From the NCBI RefSeq assembly GCF_900066015.1, contig NZ_LN890657.1, forward strand, positions 1 through 40,759: a stretch of DNA of 40,759 nucleotides. Direction: 5' to 3'. The position numbers and the translations under genes were made by a program. The notes under the pieces were generated by a model. It saw only the letters and a program-made list of their open reading frames with translations. It searched no databases and was not told the DNA's origin. Positions 2,234 through 40,759 of this stretch are shown piece by piece (the first letter of the stretch is position 1; every line of letters begins with the position of its first letter). The stretch comes from Candidatus Promineifilum breve (GTDB taxonomy: Bacteria; Chloroflexota; Anaerolineae; Promineifilales; Promineifilaceae).

Positions 2234-2568
2234 ACATCTATCCCAGCGATTACGACGACGACCGGCCGGAAGCGCCGTGGAACGACGCGGCCCAGGCCGC
2301 CGCAGATCGGGAATGGTCTGAGCACCTTGACGCAATCGGAGACCCGGCGGCCGAACGGATTGACGAGCACCTCGACGAACAGGACGCCGCCGCTGACTGG
2401 ACGCCGGAAACCGTCTATGACCCGCGCCCGTTCCGCCTTTGGTGGCACGGCAAGATGACTTACCAAGAGTATCAGGCGCATAAGGCCCGGATAGCGGCTA
2501 TGCGCGAGGAATGGAACCGGCGGCAGGATGAGTATGTATTTCGGCTTATGGCCGAGATGGGATGGTGA
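2230..2568 (+). CDS. Acidic hypothetical protein (112 aa)
   Basis: The start at ATG 2230 overlaps the upstream stop (ATGA) and has AGGAAGGTG upstream; the open frame extends further 5' without a better start. The protein is highly acidic (DYDDDRPEAPWNDAAQ, RIDEHLDEQDAAAD) and ends in a helical stretch YQEYQAHKARIAAMREEWNRRQDEY. The charge resembles DNA-mimic or hub proteins of phages, but no family match is seen, so function is unknown. Confidence 0.6.
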   Translation: MNIYPSDYDDDRPEAPWNDAAQAAADREWSEHLDAIGDPAAERIDEHLDEQDAAADWTPETVYDPRPFRLWWHGKMTYQEYQAHKARIAAMREEWNRRQDEYVFRLMAEMGW

Positions 2569-2569
2569 C

Positions 2570-2647
2570 ATGATGACCGCCGGTGATGGCAAGCCCTGTA
2601 CTCGTTGTGGTACGTCTGAGGCGACGGCGCGGGGCGAACTGGACTAA
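2570..2647 (+). CDS. Possible 25-aa peptide with a CxxC motif
   Basis: ATG 2570 (or 2573) to TAA 2645 encodes [20 protein letters not shown] and five more residues. GKPCTRCG is a single zinc-knuckle half (C10, C13). It directly follows the previous gene on the same strand. No strong ribosome binding site is visible, so it may be a remnant of a zinc-ribbon gene or a real microprotein. Confidence 0.35.
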
Positions 2648-2689
2648 ATCAGGCGGGGGGAGTGACTAACCCGGCCAATGGAGGACAAA

Positions 2690-3262
2690 GTGAACTGGAC
2701 AGAAACACGTGAATTACTGATTGCCGCCGGTATCGCCGCCGGGTTGCCGACCCAGTGGCTACCGGCAATCGACTTGAGCGGGGCCAACCTGAGCGGGGCC
2801 AACCTGAGCGGGGCCAACCTGAGCGGGGCCAACCTGAGCGGGGCCGACCTGAGCCGGGCCGACCTGAGCGGGGCCAACCTGAGCGGGGCCAACCTGAGCG
2901 GGGCCAACCTGAGCGGGGCCGACCTGAGCCGGGCCGACCTGAGCGGGGCCGACCTGAGCGAGGCCGACCTGAGCGGGGCCGGCCTGCGCTGGGCCAACCT
3001 GAGCGGGGCCAACCTGAGCGGGGCCAACCTGAGCGGGGCCACAGGAAATTTCACGGTGGGGTATTTCGGCCGGCAACACGCCGTAGCCGCCGGTGGATTC
3101 ATTTCAATCGGCTGTGAACACCACACGTATGACGTGTGGCTAGCTGAGTACGAGGCTATCGGTCGACAGCGCGGCTACAGCGATGATGAGATCGCCGACT
3201 ACGGCGTGTGGATCAAGTTGGCCGTTGCCCGCCAGCAGCGGATTGAGGCGGGAAACAAATGA
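2690..3262 (+). CDS. Pentapeptide-repeat protein (about 190 aa)
   Basis: Eighteen consecutive pentapeptides of type [15 protein letters not shown] (about 2774-3043) predict a right-handed quadrilateral beta-helix of four to five coils. Repeats are nearly identical at the DNA level, so slippage can change their number. The C-terminal 70 residues ([35 protein letters not shown]) form a conserved helical domain that I recall in other pentapeptide proteins. GTG 2690 is preferred because GGAGG at 2680-2684 is then its ribosome binding site; ATG 2678 is the alternative. Some family members mimic DNA and inhibit gyrase (MfpA, Qnr), but no such role is shown here. The next gene overlaps by ATGA. Confidence 0.85.
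2774..3043 (+). repeat. 15-bp tandem coding repeat (18 units)
   Basis: The unit CTGAGCGGGGCCAAC and close variants are repeated without interruption. The array is free of stops in several frames on both strands, producing spurious open frames such as [10 protein letters not shown] on the minus strand. Confidence 0.9.
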
Positions 3263-3699
3263 GCAAGAAAACCACGAAAATACTGGTAATTGGCAATTAC
3301 CGCGCAAGAATGCAAAACGTAGCCGTATCGGATGACGGCCGCGTGGCCTGGATTGATGATACTTTGTATCAGATCCAAACAGAGACGGCTCAGAAGCAAG
3401 CCGTTCTGAAACACAGCCGCGCTCGTCACACGGACGCGGCAGCCATCGCCGCCGCGACGGCGTGGGTGTGGCAATCGCGCGGCGTCACGACGAAAGAAAA
3501 CCGCACCGTCACGCTGGTACAGCGCGTCGCCCGGTGCGGCATTTACCGGACGGAACGGTCGAAAGCCAGTGTCCGCATCACCCGTTTCGATGGCAAAGAA
3601 TATGCCATCGTCGCGGATAAGGAGGCCGACCATCCCTACCCCGTAGAACGGGGTGAGGTCAACATCGGCGGACTTTGGGATACCGGCGACCGGGGATAA
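3259..3699 (+). CDS. Hypothetical protein (146 aa)
   Basis: The ATG overlaps the pentapeptide gene stop (ATGA). The basic N-terminus [23 protein letters not shown] leads into a beta-rich segment with [15 protein letters not shown], an Ala-rich helix ([16 protein letters not shown]), and a second beta-rich half ending [23 protein letters not shown]. No family is recognised. Coupling to the pentapeptide gene suggests co-expression. It is followed by a strong hairpin, so it is probably the last gene of this operon. Confidence 0.65.
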
Positions 3700-3710
3700 T
3701 TCAACCGTTC

Positions 3711-3735
3711 ACGGCCGGGCTGGAACCCCGGCCGT
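3711..3735 (+). terminator. Nine-bp perfect hairpin after the operon
   Basis: ACGGCCGGG (3711-3719) pairs perfectly with CCCGGCCGT (3727-3735) around seven bases. It lies 12 bases after a stop codon. No T-tract follows, so termination is inferred from position and stem strength only. Confidence 0.5.
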
Positions 3736-3805
3736 AAAGGCGCGGCGTAGGGCGTGAATCGCCGCGAAGCAGGCTCCTACTACACAGTAGTCTATTTGGA
3801 CCAAT

Positions 3806-3836
3806 CCCACCGTCGTCAGCGCCCGGCGACGGTGGG
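3806..3836. other. Ten-bp perfect stem-loop in the 186-bp gap 3700-3885
   Basis: CCCACCGTCG (3806-3815) pairs with CGACGGTGGG (3827-3836), loop of 11 bases. A smaller ACTAC/GTAGT stem lies just upstream at about 3777-3791. The gap 3700-3885 holds no gene I can support; these hairpins and the terminator upstream are its contents. They may shape the leader of the gene at 3886. Confidence 0.5.
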
Positions 3837-3885
3837 GGTGGGGGTAGAGGTAACGAGCGCCGCATGAGCGAGTCGGGGAAGGTGA

Positions 3886-26580: not shown

Positions 26581-28278
26581 TTACCCTCTCAAAGGCGTGG
26601 GGTTGTAGCCGCCCGCCGCGCGCTCTTCGTCGGTCAACGCCTCGAACACGACCGGCTGCAACCAACAGCGGCAATTACTGGTAATAATTCCATCTGTAAT
26701 GTATAATTCATAGTCATCGACCTGGAGATCATAGACATGACCGCTAAAGCCGAATTCCCTGATACTGACAATCTCATCCGGCGTTACCAGTCCGGCGAAT
26801 CGCTCTACAAACTGGCGAGCGAAAAAGGCGTGACGCCTAAAGTTATCGCTCGCATCATGCGCGAGGCGGGCGTTCTCGAATCCCGTCAAGGTCTTAGGAT
26901 TGATCTGGACATCGAATCTATTATTGCCCATTACCTTGCCGGTGAATCCGAAAAGGCTATCTCTGATAGTCTGGGGGTCAACCGCTGGACTATCCGCCGC
27001 CGTTTGCAAGCGGCCGGGATTGAGCCGCGCGGCCGATCCGAAGCCGAACTCCTCAAATGGTCGCAGATGACCGCCGAACAGAAACGGCAACAGGTCGCTC
27101 CGGCCCATGACGCGGTTCGCGGCGTGCCGGTTCCTCATGCCCGCAAAGTCAAGATCGCCAAAGGAAAGGAGCGGATGCAAGGCCATGCTGTTGCTGCTGA
27201 GCGACACCTGGCGCAAGTGCTCACAGATCGCGGCCTCACCGTCACGTTGCAACGAGCGGTCGATAAATACAATATCGATATTGCCATTGACTCGCCGCCC
27301 GTCGCTGTGGAAATCTTCGGCGGTGGCTGGCATAGTTCGGGCGACCACGCCCGGCGCTTCTTTGAGCGCACTAAATACTTTCTCGATTGCGGCTGGAACG
27401 TAGTCATTGTCTGGGTTGACGGCCGCCGCTATCCCGTCGGCGTTGGTTGTGCTGATTACGTAGCCGCCTTTGTTCAAGAACTTGGCGGCGACATATCCGG
27501 CCGGGGTCAATATCGGGTGATTCTCGGTGACGGTCAGGACGCGCCCGCTACGGACAGTTATTTCAATAGCCTTGCCGTCATAGAACGATTGCGCGGCGGC
27601 TGATAGGCGGCCGGGTATTACCACCTCGTTGCCCGGCAAAATGCACATCACATGAGCCGGCGGCACGACGACGGTCAGCGGCGCGCCCAGCGCCCGTTTG
27701 AGCGCCGGATCGGCCGCCAACATCGCCTCATTGAACTCCCAACCCCTGTCCAGTTCAACGAATTTGCCGTTCAACTTTGCGCAAATCGGGCACACGTTCT
27801 CATCGACGGCCGTGCGCCACCGCTTGCCGCTCACCACGCCCGCCGCCTTCCAGGCCGTGACATTGCCCGCGGCGTAGATGCGCGTAACCTCGGTCACGGC
27901 CACGCGGTGCGCCCGCTTGGCGTCGAAGAAGCTGCCTAACCGCTGTTCCAACTCCGGCAGTGGCGCGCCGCTTCTCACCCAGCGGTCTATCTCGCGCACC
28001 ACGCCGCGCCGGGTCGTGTCGTTGAGCATGAACGCCCAGGCGTAGGCCCCCTCGCTGGTCAGGCCGGGAATGGGGGCGCCGCCGAGGTACATATCCAGCC
28101 ACGCCAGCGCATCCTCATTGAACACGTCCCAATCGACCAGTACCGACCCGGCGCGGATGGCCCCGGCTCCGGCGTCGCCGCCGGCGATCAGGATGTCCAT
28201 CGTCAACTCGGCGAACTCGCGCCGCAGTTGGGGGAGATGCGGCTGCCACCAGCCCGGATCGCGGATGCTACCGGCCAT
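26581..28278 (-). CDS. MuF/SPP1 gp7-type head morphogenesis protein interrupted by an intein (565-aa precursor)
   Basis: Extein residues 1-211 and 536-565 form a MuF-type protein (KRAHRVAVTEVTRIYAAGNVTAWKAAGV; CPICAKLNGK; PPAHV then CRCW). The mature product would be about 241 residues. Between M211 and C536 lies a 324-residue intein (27645-26674) interrupting the family's most conserved PPAHxxCRCW motif. Splicing must occur for the phage to make the head protein, which acts with the portal. The gene overlaps the portal end by 11 bases. The opposite strand of the intein encodes a separate nuclease. Without splicing the motif is destroyed. Confidence 0.85.
   Translation of the reverse strand: MAGSIRDPGWWQPHLPQLRREFAELTMDILIAGGDAGAGAIRAGSVLVDWDVFNEDALAWLDMYLGGAPIPGLTSEGAYAWAFMLNDTTRRGVVREIDRWVRSGAPLPELEQRLGSFFDAKRAHRVAVTEVTRIYAAGNVTAWKAAGVVSGKRWRTAVDENVCPICAKLNGKFVELDRGWEFNEAMLAADPALKRALGAPLTVVVPPAHVMCILPGNEVVIPGRLSAAAQSFYDGKAIEITVRSGRVLTVTENHPILTPAGYVAAKFLNKGGYVISTTNADGIAAAVNPDNDYVPAAIEKVFSALKEAPGVVARTMPATAEDFHSDGRRVNGNIDIVFIDRSLQRDGEAAICEHLRQVSLSSNSMALHPLLSFGDLDFAGMRNRHAANRVMGRSDLLPFLFGGHLRPFEEFGFGSAARLNPGRLQTAADSPAVDPQTIRDSLFGFTGKVMGNNRFDVQINPKTLTGFENARLAHDASDNFRRHAFFARQFVERFAGLVTPDEIVSIREFGFSGHVYDLQVDDYELYITDGIITSNCRCWLQPVVFEALTDEERAAGGYNPTPLRG
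26674..27645 (-). mobile_element. Intein (Hint domain, 324 aa) in the MuF head protein
   Basis: Block A begins C212 ILPGNEVVIPG. Block B contains RVLTVTENHPILTPAGY with the TxxH pattern (T251, H254). Block F is SGHVYDLQVDDYELYITDG (512-530) and block G is IITSN, ending N535 before C536. The penultimate residue is Ser, not the usual His. The centre (about 290-500) has no LAGLIDADG or HNH nuclease, but has TAEDFHSDG (319-327) and NGNIDIVFIDRSL (331-343), which resemble a segment I recall from other phage Hint proteins. C1, H(block B), N(last) and C+1 are all present, so it should splice. It lies across from an antisense nuclease gene. Confidence 0.88.
26737..27603 (+). CDS. Antisense Vsr-like homing endonuclease inside the intein (288 aa)
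   Basis: Transcribed opposite to the late operon. GGAG at 26724-26727 lies nine bases before ATG and the gene ends TGA TAG. The N-terminal half has two resolvase-type helix-turn-helix units (SLYKLASEKGVTPKVIARIMR, 22-42; AISDSLGVNRWTIRRRLQAAG, 74-94). The C-terminal half has a Vsr/PD-(D/E)xK-like core: E155, D181 in NIDIAIDS, E192 in VAVEIFGGGWH, H199, R206/R207, K213 and GWNVVIVWVDG. This resembles the EDxHD homing-endonuclease family first described with phage split inteins. It probably cuts intein-free MuF genes and so spreads the intein. It covers 867 of 972 intein bases, in exact codon register with the other strand. Confidence 0.82.
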   Translation: MTAKAEFPDTDNLIRRYQSGESLYKLASEKGVTPKVIARIMREAGVLESRQGLRIDLDIESIIAHYLAGESEKAISDSLGVNRWTIRRRLQAAGIEPRGRSEAELLKWSQMTAEQKRQQVAPAHDAVRGVPVPHARKVKIAKGKERMQGHAVAAERHLAQVLTDRGLTVTLQRAVDKYNIDIAIDSPPVAVEIFGGGWHSSGDHARRFFERTKYFLDCGWNVVIVWVDGRRYPVGVGCADYVAAFVQELGGDISGRGQYRVILGDGQDAPATDSYFNSLAVIERLRGG

Positions 28279-32668: not shown

Positions 32669-33589
32669 ATGCAGACTATAGCACAGTTGAAGTTGCGCCC
32701 GGCGTGGGTAGGTTACAACACCCAGAAAGTTCCCCTCGACCCGCACACCGGGCGCGCAGCAGCGACGAATAACCCCGACACGTGGGGGACGGCCGCGCAG
32801 GCCTGGGCCGCCAAGAAGCGTCACAGATGGGCGGGGATCGGCTATGTATTCACCATCGGCGCGGGGGTGGTTGGCGTCGATCTTGATGACTGTTTTACAG
32901 ATGACGGCCACCTGAATGACACGGCGCGTCAGATTGTCCAGATGTTAAACTCCTATACCGAGCGGTCGCCATCCGGGAATGGCCTTCACATTCTGGCTTG
33001 CGGCGCGATTCCCCATAGCGTTAAACCTCCCGGCGGCGGCTTTGAGATGTATAACGAACTCCGCTATTTCACCGTCACCGGCCGGCAGTTCGGCGCGGCG
33101 GCCGTCGAGCAGGGATTCGTATCCGGTGACATTGAAGACCGGAACGACGAACTAAATGCCCTGTTCGTTGTCTTTGGCGGCGACACGGAACCGACCGCGC
33201 CGCAACCTCGACCGGCTATTGAGCGCGGCAACCTGACGACAAGCGAAGCCGAGGTAGCGCGGGCGCTGGCCGTCATTCCCCCAAACGGCGACTATAATAC
33301 GGATTGGCTACCTATCCTTATGGCGGTGCATGACGCCTTTCCCGATGAACGCGGCATATCTCTAATTGAATCCTGGTCACCGGGCTATACAGGAGAGGTC
33401 GCCCGTAAATGGCGGAGCTTCGAAACGACCGAGCGGGCGGGCCGGATCACCATCGCGTCGCTATTTCACCGGGCTAAACAATACGGATATGAGCCGATAC
33501 GCCGAATAGCCACGTCTAGTGCTAGACGTGGCTCAGATATAACCGATGCGCTGGCACAACGGAGGCGCGTCAATGAACACGGCTTATGA
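32669..33589 (+). CDS. Bifunctional primase-polymerase-like replication protein (306 aa)
   Basis: The N-terminal Prim-Pol domain (about 1-165) begins QLKLRPAWVGYNTQKVPLDPHTGRAAATNNPDTW and has the catalytic acidic pair in GAGVVGVDLDDCF, the SPSGNGLHILACG motif with catalytic-type His, and YFTVTGRQFG. The C-terminal part (AEVARALAVIPPNGDYNTDWLPILMAVHDAF... ISLIESWSPGY) is a PriCT-2-type primase domain. It should make primers or copy DNA at the phage origin. AAGGAGG lies before the ATG. It precedes the RepA-like helicase by a 17-base overlap, the usual plasmid or phage replication pair. Confidence 0.82.
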   Translation: MQTIAQLKLRPAWVGYNTQKVPLDPHTGRAAATNNPDTWGTAAQAWAAKKRHRWAGIGYVFTIGAGVVGVDLDDCFTDDGHLNDTARQIVQMLNSYTERSPSGNGLHILACGAIPHSVKPPGGGFEMYNELRYFTVTGRQFGAAAVEQGFVSGDIEDRNDELNALFVVFGGDTEPTAPQPRPAIERGNLTTSEAEVARALAVIPPNGDYNTDWLPILMAVHDAFPDERGISLIESWSPGYTGEVARKWRSFETTERAGRITIASLFHRAKQYGYEPIRRIATSSARRGSDITDALAQRRRVNEHGL

Positions 33590-34646
33590 TGAACCGCCCA
33601 CCGTGCAACGATGGGTCTTCCGCACATTGGTCGAGGCGCGTGTACCGCGCGCACCTACGGAATACATCGTTGATAAATATCTGGCAACCCATACGCTAAA
33701 CGTTCTGTATGGAGCGCCGGGGTCTCTTAAATCGATGATAGCCCTCAGTCTGGGCTTGTGCGTCGCCGGTGGTTTGCCGTGGCTGCGTGGCCTGTTCGGT
33801 GGTGATCAGGGAGCGACCGTCATTCAATCACCTGTCATCTGGATCGACCTTGACAACGGCCAGCGCCGGACGGATGAGCGCGTAGATGCCATGTCTAAAG
33901 CGATGCACTTACCGGACGATGCGCCGTTCTACTACCTATCAATGCCTACGCCCTCGCTACGGGCCACTGATGTAGAAAGTATGGGTTTGTTACATGACGA
34001 GATTACACGCCTGTCGGCGCGGATGGTTGTCATTGATAACCTGGGACTCGTCACCGGCACAGTGGAAGAGAATAGTGCGGAAATGGCTCAAGTAATGAAA
34101 AATTTCCGATGGTTAGCCGAAGAGACCGGCGCGGCCTTTCTTATCCTGCACCATCAGCGCAAGGGCGGGGCTAACGGATCGCGGCCGGGTGACGCTCTTC
34201 GAGGTCATAGTAGTATCGAGGCGGCCATTGACCTCGCGCTTCATGCAGTGCGTGAGGCGAACTCGAATCAGGTAGGATTACGTAGCACAAAAACGCGCGG
34301 CGTAGACGTGCCTAATGCCGTCATGGAATTCAGCTATGAGCACGTGCCCGGCACGAATGACCTGAGCAATGCTTACTTTACATCGGTCGCCGTTCGCCAG
34401 AATAACCTGCTACTAAAACAATCGCTACTATCTTTTGCCGAGGGCAACTCCCCCCACGGCATACCCAAAAATCGCCTACGCGAATTGGTCTATGATGACC
34501 TGGCCGGCGAATTTTCCCACGGCAAGATACGCGCCGAGATGGATCACCTCATCGAAGTCACCGGCGAATTGGGCATTACCGAAGGTCGCCAGGGGGCAAA
34601 ACTAGTCATTCTAAGCGGCGGTAATGGGGTAAATAACAATGACTAA
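33573..34646 (+). CDS. RepA-like hexameric replicative helicase / AAA_25 ATPase (357 aa)
   Basis: ATG 33573 (GGAGG seven bases upstream) is preferred over ATG 33546. It has Walker A VLYGAPGSLKSMIALSLGL (about 46-64), a VIWIDLDNGQRRTDERV motif, Walker B RMVVIDNLGLVTG, the sensor-like FLILHHQRKGG, and ALRGHSSIEAAIDLAL, the pattern of RSF1010 RepA and phage RecA-fold helicases. The C-terminal winged-helix-like part (KNRLRELVYDDLAGEFSHGKIRAEMDHL) could bind DNA. It would unwind DNA at the origin with the primase just upstream. The CTGTACA repeat array begins directly after it. Confidence 0.85.
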   Translation: MNTAYDEPPTVQRWVFRTLVEARVPRAPTEYIVDKYLATHTLNVLYGAPGSLKSMIALSLGLCVAGGLPWLRGLFGGDQGATVIQSPVIWIDLDNGQRRTDERVDAMSKAMHLPDDAPFYYLSMPTPSLRATDVESMGLLHDEITRLSARMVVIDNLGLVTGTVEENSAEMAQVMKNFRWLAEETGAAFLILHHQRKGGANGSRPGDALRGHSSIEAAIDLALHAVREANSNQVGLRSTKTRGVDVPNAVMEFSYEHVPGTNDLSNAYFTSVAVRQNNLLLKQSLLSFAEGNSPHGIPKNRLRELVYDDLAGEFSHGKIRAEMDHLIEVTGELGITEGRQGAKLVILSGGNGVNNND

Positions 34647-35381: not shown

Positions 35382-35501
35382 ATGACCGCACTAGTCACCC
35401 CCACCACCCCCGCCGAATGGGCCGCCCGCATCGTCGTGCGCCATCCCGCACTGGCTCAGCCCGTCCAAAAGGCGCTGGCCCTCCCCCGGCCCGGCAGCTA
35501 A
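35382..35501 (+). pseudogene. Truncated copy of the SWIM-protein gene start (39 codons)
   Basis: AGGAG precedes ATG 35382. Residues 10-33 (PAEWAARIVVRHPALAQPVQKALAL) are encoded by 73 bases identical to 36018-36090 within the full-length SWIM gene; then the copy departs and stops at 35501. It therefore represents a partial duplication. A 39-residue peptide may still be translated. A strong terminator follows 26 bases later. Confidence 0.75.
35410..35482 (+). repeat. 73-bp direct repeat, left copy (right copy 36018-36090)
   Basis: The 73 bases are identical to 36018-36090 and lie 608 bases apart. They bracket a terminator, a repressor gene and its divergent promoters. Such perfect identity implies a recent event: tandem duplication with deletion, or insertion of a regulatory cassette by homologous ends. 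Confidence 0.9.
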
Positions 35502-35968: not shown

Positions 35969-36547
35969 ATGCAAGCCCAGATGACCTACACCGCCCCGCC
36001 CCCGCTGCCGATGACCGCCGCCGAATGGGCCGCCCGCATCGTCGTGCGCCATCCCGCACTGGCTCAGCCCGTCCAAAAGGCGCTGGCCCTGGTCGAGGAA
36101 GGCCACGTTCACGCCCACGACCGCCGGGCCGAAGTCGTCGGCAGTGACGGCAAAAATACGTACCACCTGCGCTACATCGAAGCGACCGGCGCATGGCTTT
36201 GCACCTGCCCGGCCTTCCTCTACCGGCCGCACATGATCGGCCAGACCGCCTACTGCAAACACACCCTTGCCCGCGCCATCGCCGCCCGCGCCGACAAACA
36301 CCACCACCTCCGCGTCACCGCCATCCACCGCGAACGCAACCGCCACGCATCGAGCGACGAACCCTGGACAAAAACCCCCGTCGCCTTTTTCACCGACGGC
36401 CGCCACGAAACCAGACACGCCATCACCGACGACCAATACGACCAACTCGCCGCCATAGCCACCGACGACGACTACCACGACCACGACTACATCGCCTACA
36501 ACCAACCCATTCAATGGCACGACGTATTCAGCGAAGACCGAGCCTGA
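35969..36547 (+). CDS. SWIM-type zinc-finger protein (192 aa)
   Basis: The start ATG 35969 has AAGGA eight bases upstream, within a 42-base leader. WLCTCPAFLYRPHMIGQTAYCKHTLARAI (about 95-123) is the SWIM zinc motif CxCx(15)CxH that binds DNA or protein. The N-terminal AAEWAARIVVRHPALAQPVQKALALVEEGHVHAHD is helical. The C-terminal part is rich in His and Asp (DDDYHDHDYIAYNQPIQWHDVF), and a YHLRYIEATGAWLCTC strand leads into the finger. It is the first gene behind the second switch. Codon use is extremely C-ending, unlike the late genes, suggesting transfer. Its 5' part was duplicated at 35410. Confidence 0.82.
   Translation: MQAQMTYTAPPPLPMTAAEWAARIVVRHPALAQPVQKALALVEEGHVHAHDRRAEVVGSDGKNTYHLRYIEATGAWLCTCPAFLYRPHMIGQTAYCKHTLARAIAARADKHHHLRVTAIHRERNRHASSDEPWTKTPVAFFTDGRHETRHAITDDQYDQLAAIATDDDYHDHDYIAYNQPIQWHDVFSEDRA
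36018..36090 (+). repeat. 73-bp direct repeat, right copy
   Basis: This is the intact copy within the SWIM gene, identical to 35410-35482. Confidence 0.9.
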
Positions 36548-40631: not shown

Positions 40632-40759
40632 ATTGAACACTACGGTTTCACCGGGCAGCCTAAACCGTAGTGTTCAATCTGACGCACAGAGAGAAAACCG
40701 TAGTGTTCAATCAATGAACACTACGGAATTGAACACTACGGTTTCACCGGGCAGCCTAA
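40632..40759. repeat. Iteron array with 96-bp tandem units
   Basis: The 14-mer CCGTAGTGTTCAAT is at 40665-40678 and 40698-40711; the reverse complement at 40632-40645, 40713-40726 (one mismatch) and 40728-40741. Bases 40664-40759 make one 96-bp unit; the preceding 32 bases (40632-40663) repeat the end of the unit and the unit continues in bases 1-77. Bases 40568-40631 are GC-rich and show nothing else. The convergent pairs could be bound by an initiator or partition protein, or be operators of the gene at 51. Confidence 0.85.

Follow-up and report, generated by a model that had tools for sequence, protein, structure and literature searches.

The contig of Candidatus Promineifilum breve analysed here (NZ_LN890657.1, 40,759 nucleotides, referred to as the window) carries what is very probably a mobile intein of a MuF head protein, against which a homing endonuclease gene is overprinted in antisense, codon against codon. 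The interrupted gene (26581..28278, minus strand) encodes a 565-aa precursor of the MuF/SPP1-gp7 type of head morphogenesis protein; its ORF matches Phage_Mu_F (E 8e-9) and, above the cut-off, TIGR01641 (E 2.6e-10), and it adjoins the Portal_Mu, Mu-like protease, cement, and capsid genes. The insert (26674..27645, minus strand), located just 5' of the CRC in the MuF motif, is 324 aa long and runs from C212 (residue 1) to N535 (residue 324), with C536 as the +1 residue and block B at T251xxH254 of the precursor, which is T40xxH43 in intein numbering; these residues and the strand agree with those given in a preliminary description of the window. The window intein matches Intein_splicing below the curated cut-off (E 5.8e-8) and TIGR01443, which represents the C-terminal splicing region, above its cut-off. 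The AF2 model of the intein is confident over residues 1-130 and 265-324, with pLDDT below 50 across most of 132-255, and in structure comparison it resembles the Mtu RecA intein (Z 12.6, rmsd 2.0, 108 residues aligned) and PI-PkoII (Z 12.3); Foldseek alone gave weak E-values for this model and for that of the nuclease. In the intein family, Cys1, T40, and H43 are present in 63 of 63 aligned members and the N-C junction in 94 of 99, and the penultimate residue is His in 59 members and Ser in the window. Possessing the features by which a Hint-type intein is recognized, namely Cys1, TxxH, a terminal Asn followed by Cys at +1, a predicted Hint fold, and in-frame insertion, the minus-strand insert is, judged from sequence and model, an intein that would be expected to splice.

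The plus strand of the same DNA contains a nuclease gene of 288 aa (26737..27603), which was assigned from MTES_1575, the 3r3p profile, and the AF2 model and which lies in its entirety, 867 bases, within the intein. The codons of the two frames coincide exactly, nuclease residue r facing intein residue 304-r, as the preliminary description had noted for Met1 and His514, the stop codon and Ser226, and E192 and F323. A Shine-Dalgarno-like GGAG (26724..26727, plus strand) is situated opposite L307-Q308 of intein block F, the start ATG (26737..26739) opposite intein H303 (His514 of the precursor), and the tandem stops TGA (27601-27603) and TAG (27604-27606) fall 14 codons short of intein Cys1; gene boundaries, ribosome binding site, and stops were likewise found as first described. 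Two predicted helix-turn-helix (HTH) domains are followed by a Vsr-like PD-(D/E)xK catalytic domain, all on the plus strand: the first HTH spans residues 10-43 (26764..26865; HTH_58; helices 10-18, 23-30, and 34-43), the second residues 59-92 (26911..27012; HTH_23 or HTH_7; helices 59-67, 72-79, and 83-92), and the catalytic domain residues 149-266 (27181..27534), with E155, N179, D181, E192, H199, and H204 as candidate active-site residues. The window protein matches Pfam MTES_1575 just under the curated cut-off (E 5.8e-9) and the HTH families weakly, and among 61 nuclease relatives MTES_1575 is matched by 52 and a resolvase-type HTH by 40. The family profile matches the homing endonuclease I-Bth0305I (3r3p, E 8.5e-5) and also the Vsr-like 3hrl. 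The AF2 model, for which the input alignments consisted of the window and IMG/VR loci only, has a mean pLDDT of 90 and shows a pair of HTH bundles together with a single nuclease domain of the alpha/beta type. In VIA-align, Vsr ranked top for model residues 149-280 (Z 11.1 over 116 residues), followed by 3hrl (Z 10.1) and I-Bth0305I (Z 9.4), and Foldseek placed 3r3p and 3hrl on top with weak E-values, so that the Vsr-like assignment made earlier is supported by profile and predicted structure. N179, D181, and E192 are present in 61 of 61 sequences, E155 in 60, and H199 in 53; of these, E155, D181, and H199 are the putative equivalents of EDxHD positions, of which the final D is not conserved, the D203 column being mostly Arg. 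By its profile matches and predicted fold, the plus-strand ORF is a double-HTH, Vsr/I-Bth0305I-like nuclease. In the window, a scan for sigma-70-like promoters around the start of the nuclease gene yielded none, the host not being E. coli.

As for the remainder of the contig, bases 1-77 recur exactly at 40664-40740, and further iteron-like ACCGTAGTGTTCAAT palindromes are found at the contig end (40629-40759). Taken with the genes for a PriCT_2 primase and an AAA protein (32669-34646), these repeats give the contig the look of a circular phage maintained outside the chromosome (phage-plasmid), opened within a repeat. In addition, a 15-base unit is repeated in tandem over about 18 registers at 2712-3101, inside an ORF of the plus strand, and a 77-base duplication, 99% identical, occurs at 35406-35482 and 36014-36090, 608 bases apart.

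The two-strand arrangement is kept in more than 100 phages and prophages of many bacterial groups. By tblastn, the nuclease was found in 125 phage records and the intein in 114, the phage hosts including Salmonella, Gordonia, Pseudomonas, Klebsiella, E. coli, Vibrio, Idiomarina, Edwardsiella, Aggregatibacter, and others, and a locus search of IMG/VR with an intein profile recovered at least 555 relatives. The window intein alone as a query had no match in IMG/VR, where the alignment query succeeded, and one alignment of the nuclease (A2) proved too divergent to be of use in searching for loci. In all of the 99 distinct inteins assembled from IMG/VR, phage records, one plasmid, and the window, the strand opposite the intein encodes the nuclease, always in this codon register. 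Bacterial genomes were searched with the N-terminal splicing domain only, and of the 21 loci obtained, 20 were family members, distributed among Chloroflexota, Actinomycetota, Proteobacteria, Firmicutes, and others; each of the 20 carries the antisense nuclease in register, and the remaining locus, L136, falls outside the intein family. MuF inteins that are homologous to that of the window and keep the antisense frame, which the preliminary description had named as supporting evidence, do exist, and the single register together with full-length homology indicates a single origin of the intein/nuclease pair. Since these searches were seeded with this intein family, other kinds of MuF intein may exist outside it. 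Neither a second copy nor a relative was found in 56 genomes of the host's order. Insertion just before the CRC-type MuF motif is common to all members in which the site could be resolved, and the nuclease stop lies within the intein at 92 of 99 loci; in most of the other seven the start of the intein could not be placed or the contig is cut off, and at L090 the nuclease frame extends about 8 codons into the extein. The Snoke and KMB36 records already annotate the intein and that of PK1 lists the antisense ORF as a hypothetical protein, and no annotation connecting the two was found in the records examined.

Variation within the family affects both strands together in several phages. In the Guernseyvirinae loci L012, L014, L015, L016, L032, and L035, both strands are shortened in register, the first HTH being absent from the nuclease and the corresponding part of the linker from the intein; in the 272-aa Guernseyvirinae inteins the nuclease is devoid of the residues before the second HTH. 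Four Burkholderia records match the nuclease, where seen, in its HTH part only. In GIY-YIG or endonuclease proteins of Burkholderia jumbo phages (NC_049851, 30765-31073; NC_049850, 30059-30367), the HTH part alone is shared with this nuclease, which suggests that DNA-binding modules may have been swapped.

Mobility of the intein is indicated by empty sites and by divergence of the intein that is uncoupled from that of the host gene. When an empty site is taken as a contiguous match over at least 80% of the joined-flank query, 403 of the 497 Guernseyvirinae-type phage records matched by the LP31 intein flanks, once joined, are contiguous, and so are 110 of the 160 Gordonia records matched by those of the Fosterous intein; the empty-site records are up to 94% (Guernseyvirinae-type) and 98% (Gordonia) identical, with empty alleles of Gordonia Vividuovirus reaching 97.7%. 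The inteins of Snoke (E. coli) and LP31 (Salmonella) are 95% identical with upstream exteins of 70% identity, and conversely KMB36 and Snoke share 93% in the upstream extein and 44% in the intein. Raised identity is partly expected of a doubly constrained stretch; however, at an extein divergence similar to that of Snoke/LP31, the inteins of Snoke/AH01 and PK1/STM-ZS are just 79-81% identical. For L030 and L012, two E. coli Kagunavirus phages with MuF exteins of 93% and family inteins of 44% identity, the sequences suggest independent invasions of what is apparently the same site. With regard to the observations that the preliminary description had named as speaking against the arrangement, a family member with unrelated antisense sequence was found at none of the loci recovered, whereas a broken nuclease frame beside an intact intein does occur, in L109 and L129 only. 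The former (3022-3873) has a stop in the nuclease catalytic domain, and the latter (2501-3103) has an internal deletion and a stop in the nuclease and retains an intact 193-aa intein; these two loci look like the decay of a homing endonuclease gene.

A probable homing cycle can be proposed from these features. The minus strand would be transcribed into MuF mRNA and translated into the precursor, from which the intein would splice out to restore the CRC motif of MuF. The plus strand, transcribed in antisense and provided with a ribosome binding site for the nuclease alone, would give the double-HTH nuclease as a separate protein. In co-infecting or resident phages, this protein would presumably cut MuF genes that lack the intein, close to the CRC codons, and both genes would be installed in one step when the break is repaired from the copy that has the intein. 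Splicing, cutting specificity, homing, and the expression and timing of the antisense transcript are what we infer here, and the nuclease is probably the spreader of the intein. Alternatively, both genes could be real, with the nuclease excluding superinfecting phages or repairing DNA as Vsr does and the intein moving passively by recombination. The nearest fold is indeed that of the Vsr mismatch endonuclease (Z 11.1), but this explanation is unlikely, because the nuclease is nested in a mobile element with abundant empty alleles, its profile relative is a homing endonuclease, two HTH domains suit the recognition of a specific site, and decayed copies are to be expected of a homing cycle.

Selection on the two strands was estimated by an OLGenie-like count in which substitutions were classed by their effect in both frames; the control was the MuF extein, whose antisense strand was read in the matching register. 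With ten pairs and a transition bias (kappa) of 2, antisense w was 1.01 (0.91-1.12) in the extein control, where sense w was 0.33, and 0.36 (0.32-0.40) in the nuclease overlap; where the intein tail extends beyond the nuclease gene, antisense w was 1.03 and sense w 0.14. Within the overlap, the N-terminal splicing domain (intein 16-95) showed a sense w of 0.45 (0.36-0.57) and an antisense w of 0.48 (0.39-0.60), and the linker (96-284) values of 0.84 and 0.32, respectively. The earlier view that both frames are coding is borne out by this two-strand test, with 0.36 for the nuclease in antisense and 0.45 for the N-terminal domain in sense against 1.01 for the control. In a second test with eleven disjoint pairs (bootstrap over pairs, kappa 2), the control gave an antisense w of 1.05 (0.96-1.14), while sense and antisense w were 0.33 and 0.54 (0.33-0.82) at intein 16-60, 0.54 and 0.28 at 61-95, 0.54 and 0.17 at 96-130, and 0.43 (0.29-0.59) and 0.43 (0.27-0.69) at 285-303, with a sense w of 0.88 in the linker. 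A 27-pair test included very diverged pairs, for which saturation and the chosen transition bias shift absolute w, and the contrasts with the controls persisted although absolute w varied; as absolute w depends on the assumed transition bias, only the contrast with the controls is robust. For the window against six relatives, the N-terminal domain had a sense w of 0.47 and an antisense w of 0.48, and the linker 1.25 and 0.51.

Purifying selection thus acts on the nuclease frame throughout, and on the intein frame where the intein folds, the linker being near neutral. Overprinting of two constrained proteins is clearest in two zones, namely intein 16-130 over nuclease 174-288 (27256..27600), where w is below neutral on both strands, and intein 285-303 over nuclease 1-19 (26737..26793), where it is 0.43 on both. 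In the middle linker (intein 131-255, 26881..27255; sense w 0.88-1.02, antisense 0.28-0.39, kappa 2), which is predicted to be disordered, the nuclease on the other strand is the only evident constraint. A conserved DFHGD motif of the linker lies exactly opposite the VAVE active-site strand of the nuclease, and its conservation is therefore most simply attributed to the other strand. On the other hand, the C-terminal 45 residues of the nuclease are only moderately constrained (w 0.54-0.72, CI up to 0.88), so that some of them may do no more than passively shadow intein blocks A-B. L036-L037, the nearest relatives of the window, show an unusually weak constraint on the nuclease (antisense w 0.76, 0.57-1.03). 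The near-neutral, disordered linker could be read as the sign of a nuclease gene whose complementary strand is incidentally open, the intein frame being passive and non-splicing, and ShiLan-type inserts without splicing domains do exist (PMC11855218). This is very improbable, however, in view of the invariance of C1, T40, and H43 in 63 members, the N-C junction in 94 of 99, the sense w of 0.14 at the intein C end and of about 0.33-0.45 in the N-terminal splicing domain, the predicted Hint fold (Z 12.6), and the inteins of L129 and L109 that stayed intact after nuclease decay.

The length of the open frame in the window was rejected as evidence for the nuclease, because at 61% GC and with extein codon usage the antisense frame would be open by chance with a probability of 0.32. 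In members of lower GC, the corresponding probabilities are 3e-7 (Aaphi23), 5e-14 (Vibrio phage 1.113.A), and 5e-10 (Idiomarina phage 1N2-2). The reality of the nuclease follows from homology and selection rather than from openness in the window. That the ORF might be a spurious long antisense frame, a codon-aligned shadow of GC-rich DNA that merely resembles a nuclease, may be suggested by the 0.32 and by accidental antisense ORFs of similar length nearby in the window, but it is virtually inconceivable against the homology to nuclease families and I-Bth0305I, the confident predicted fold, N179/D181/E192 invariant in 61 sequences, an antisense w far under that of the controls, and frames open in lower-GC phages at chance levels of 1e-7 to 1e-14; a chance ORF is ruled out by the homology and by the difference in selection between the nuclease frame and the extein control.

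The translation signals of the nuclease are written across intein block F. In most loci, 51-66 nt separate the nuclease start codon from the 3' end of the intein, and GGAGG, GAGG, or GGAG usually precedes the start; a stricter scan found both the start and the Shine-Dalgarno sequence in 58 of 86. His303, opposite the start, is encoded by CAT in 61 of 70 cases compared with 113 of 305 His codons in the extein (p 6e-15), and L307, opposite the Shine-Dalgarno sequence, by CTC in 62 of 75 compared with 370 of 1702 extein Leu codons (Fisher p 1e-27). These biases indicate that synonymous choice in block F is set by the other strand.

Like the canonical endonuclease-bearing inteins, such as PI-PkoII and PI-MtuI, the element described here is a mobile, endonuclease-linked intein with C1, TxxH, N, C+1, and a predicted Hint fold; in those inteins, however, the nuclease forms a domain within the intein polypeptide, encoded by one strand in one frame with it, whereas here it is a separate antisense protein. 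With the I-Bth0305I/Vsr-like (EDxHD) family the nuclease shares the predicted catalytic fold and, putatively, the E-D-H pattern (E 8.5e-5, Z 9.4), and compared with that family N179, D181, and E192 are invariant here and E155 nearly so. I-Bth0305I resides in a group I intron, and other EDxHD members are encoded between the halves of split inteins; they are not known to lie in antisense within an intein. Among the nearest described elements is the insert of ShiLan, which contains a same-strand, out-of-frame HNH gene and no splicing domain and was reported to be unspliced (PMC11855218). In both elements a phage gene contains an in-frame insert that hides a homing nuclease in another reading frame; the ShiLan insert differs in the strand, in the HNH type of the nuclease, and in the absence of the splicing domain. 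In Porphyra rDNA group I introns, the strand complementary to the mobile element carries a homing endonuclease gene, in a P1 extension (PMC2585584), as the strand complementary to the intein does here; unlike the present case, that gene overlaps a non-coding RNA element, so that no DNA is doubly protein-coding. The open-access literature searched, outside which several key papers on Vsr-like homing lie, yielded no antisense homing endonuclease gene in an intein, in line with the initial impression that such overprinting is undescribed.

The family is thus likely to represent an undescribed class of mobile inteins with a wholly antisense, in-register homing endonuclease, which arose once and now occurs in phages infecting many bacterial phyla, and to be among the strongest long antisense gene pairs in bacteria and phages. 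Such pairs are usually dismissed in prokaryotes, and the present one covers 867 bases, is deeply conserved, and bears a calibrated selection signature on both strands. It adds an architecture to those of mobile inteins and reveals a nuclease missed by annotation in about 120 public phage records. Since the carriers include cultured phages of Salmonella, E. coli, Gordonia, Pseudomonas, and Vibrio, both activities are directly testable. Furthermore, overprinting of the splicing domain may shield the nuclease from decay and slow its loss, since any frameshift in it would at the same time disrupt an essential head gene, and the family makes it possible to examine whether a selfish gene becomes entrenched in this way.
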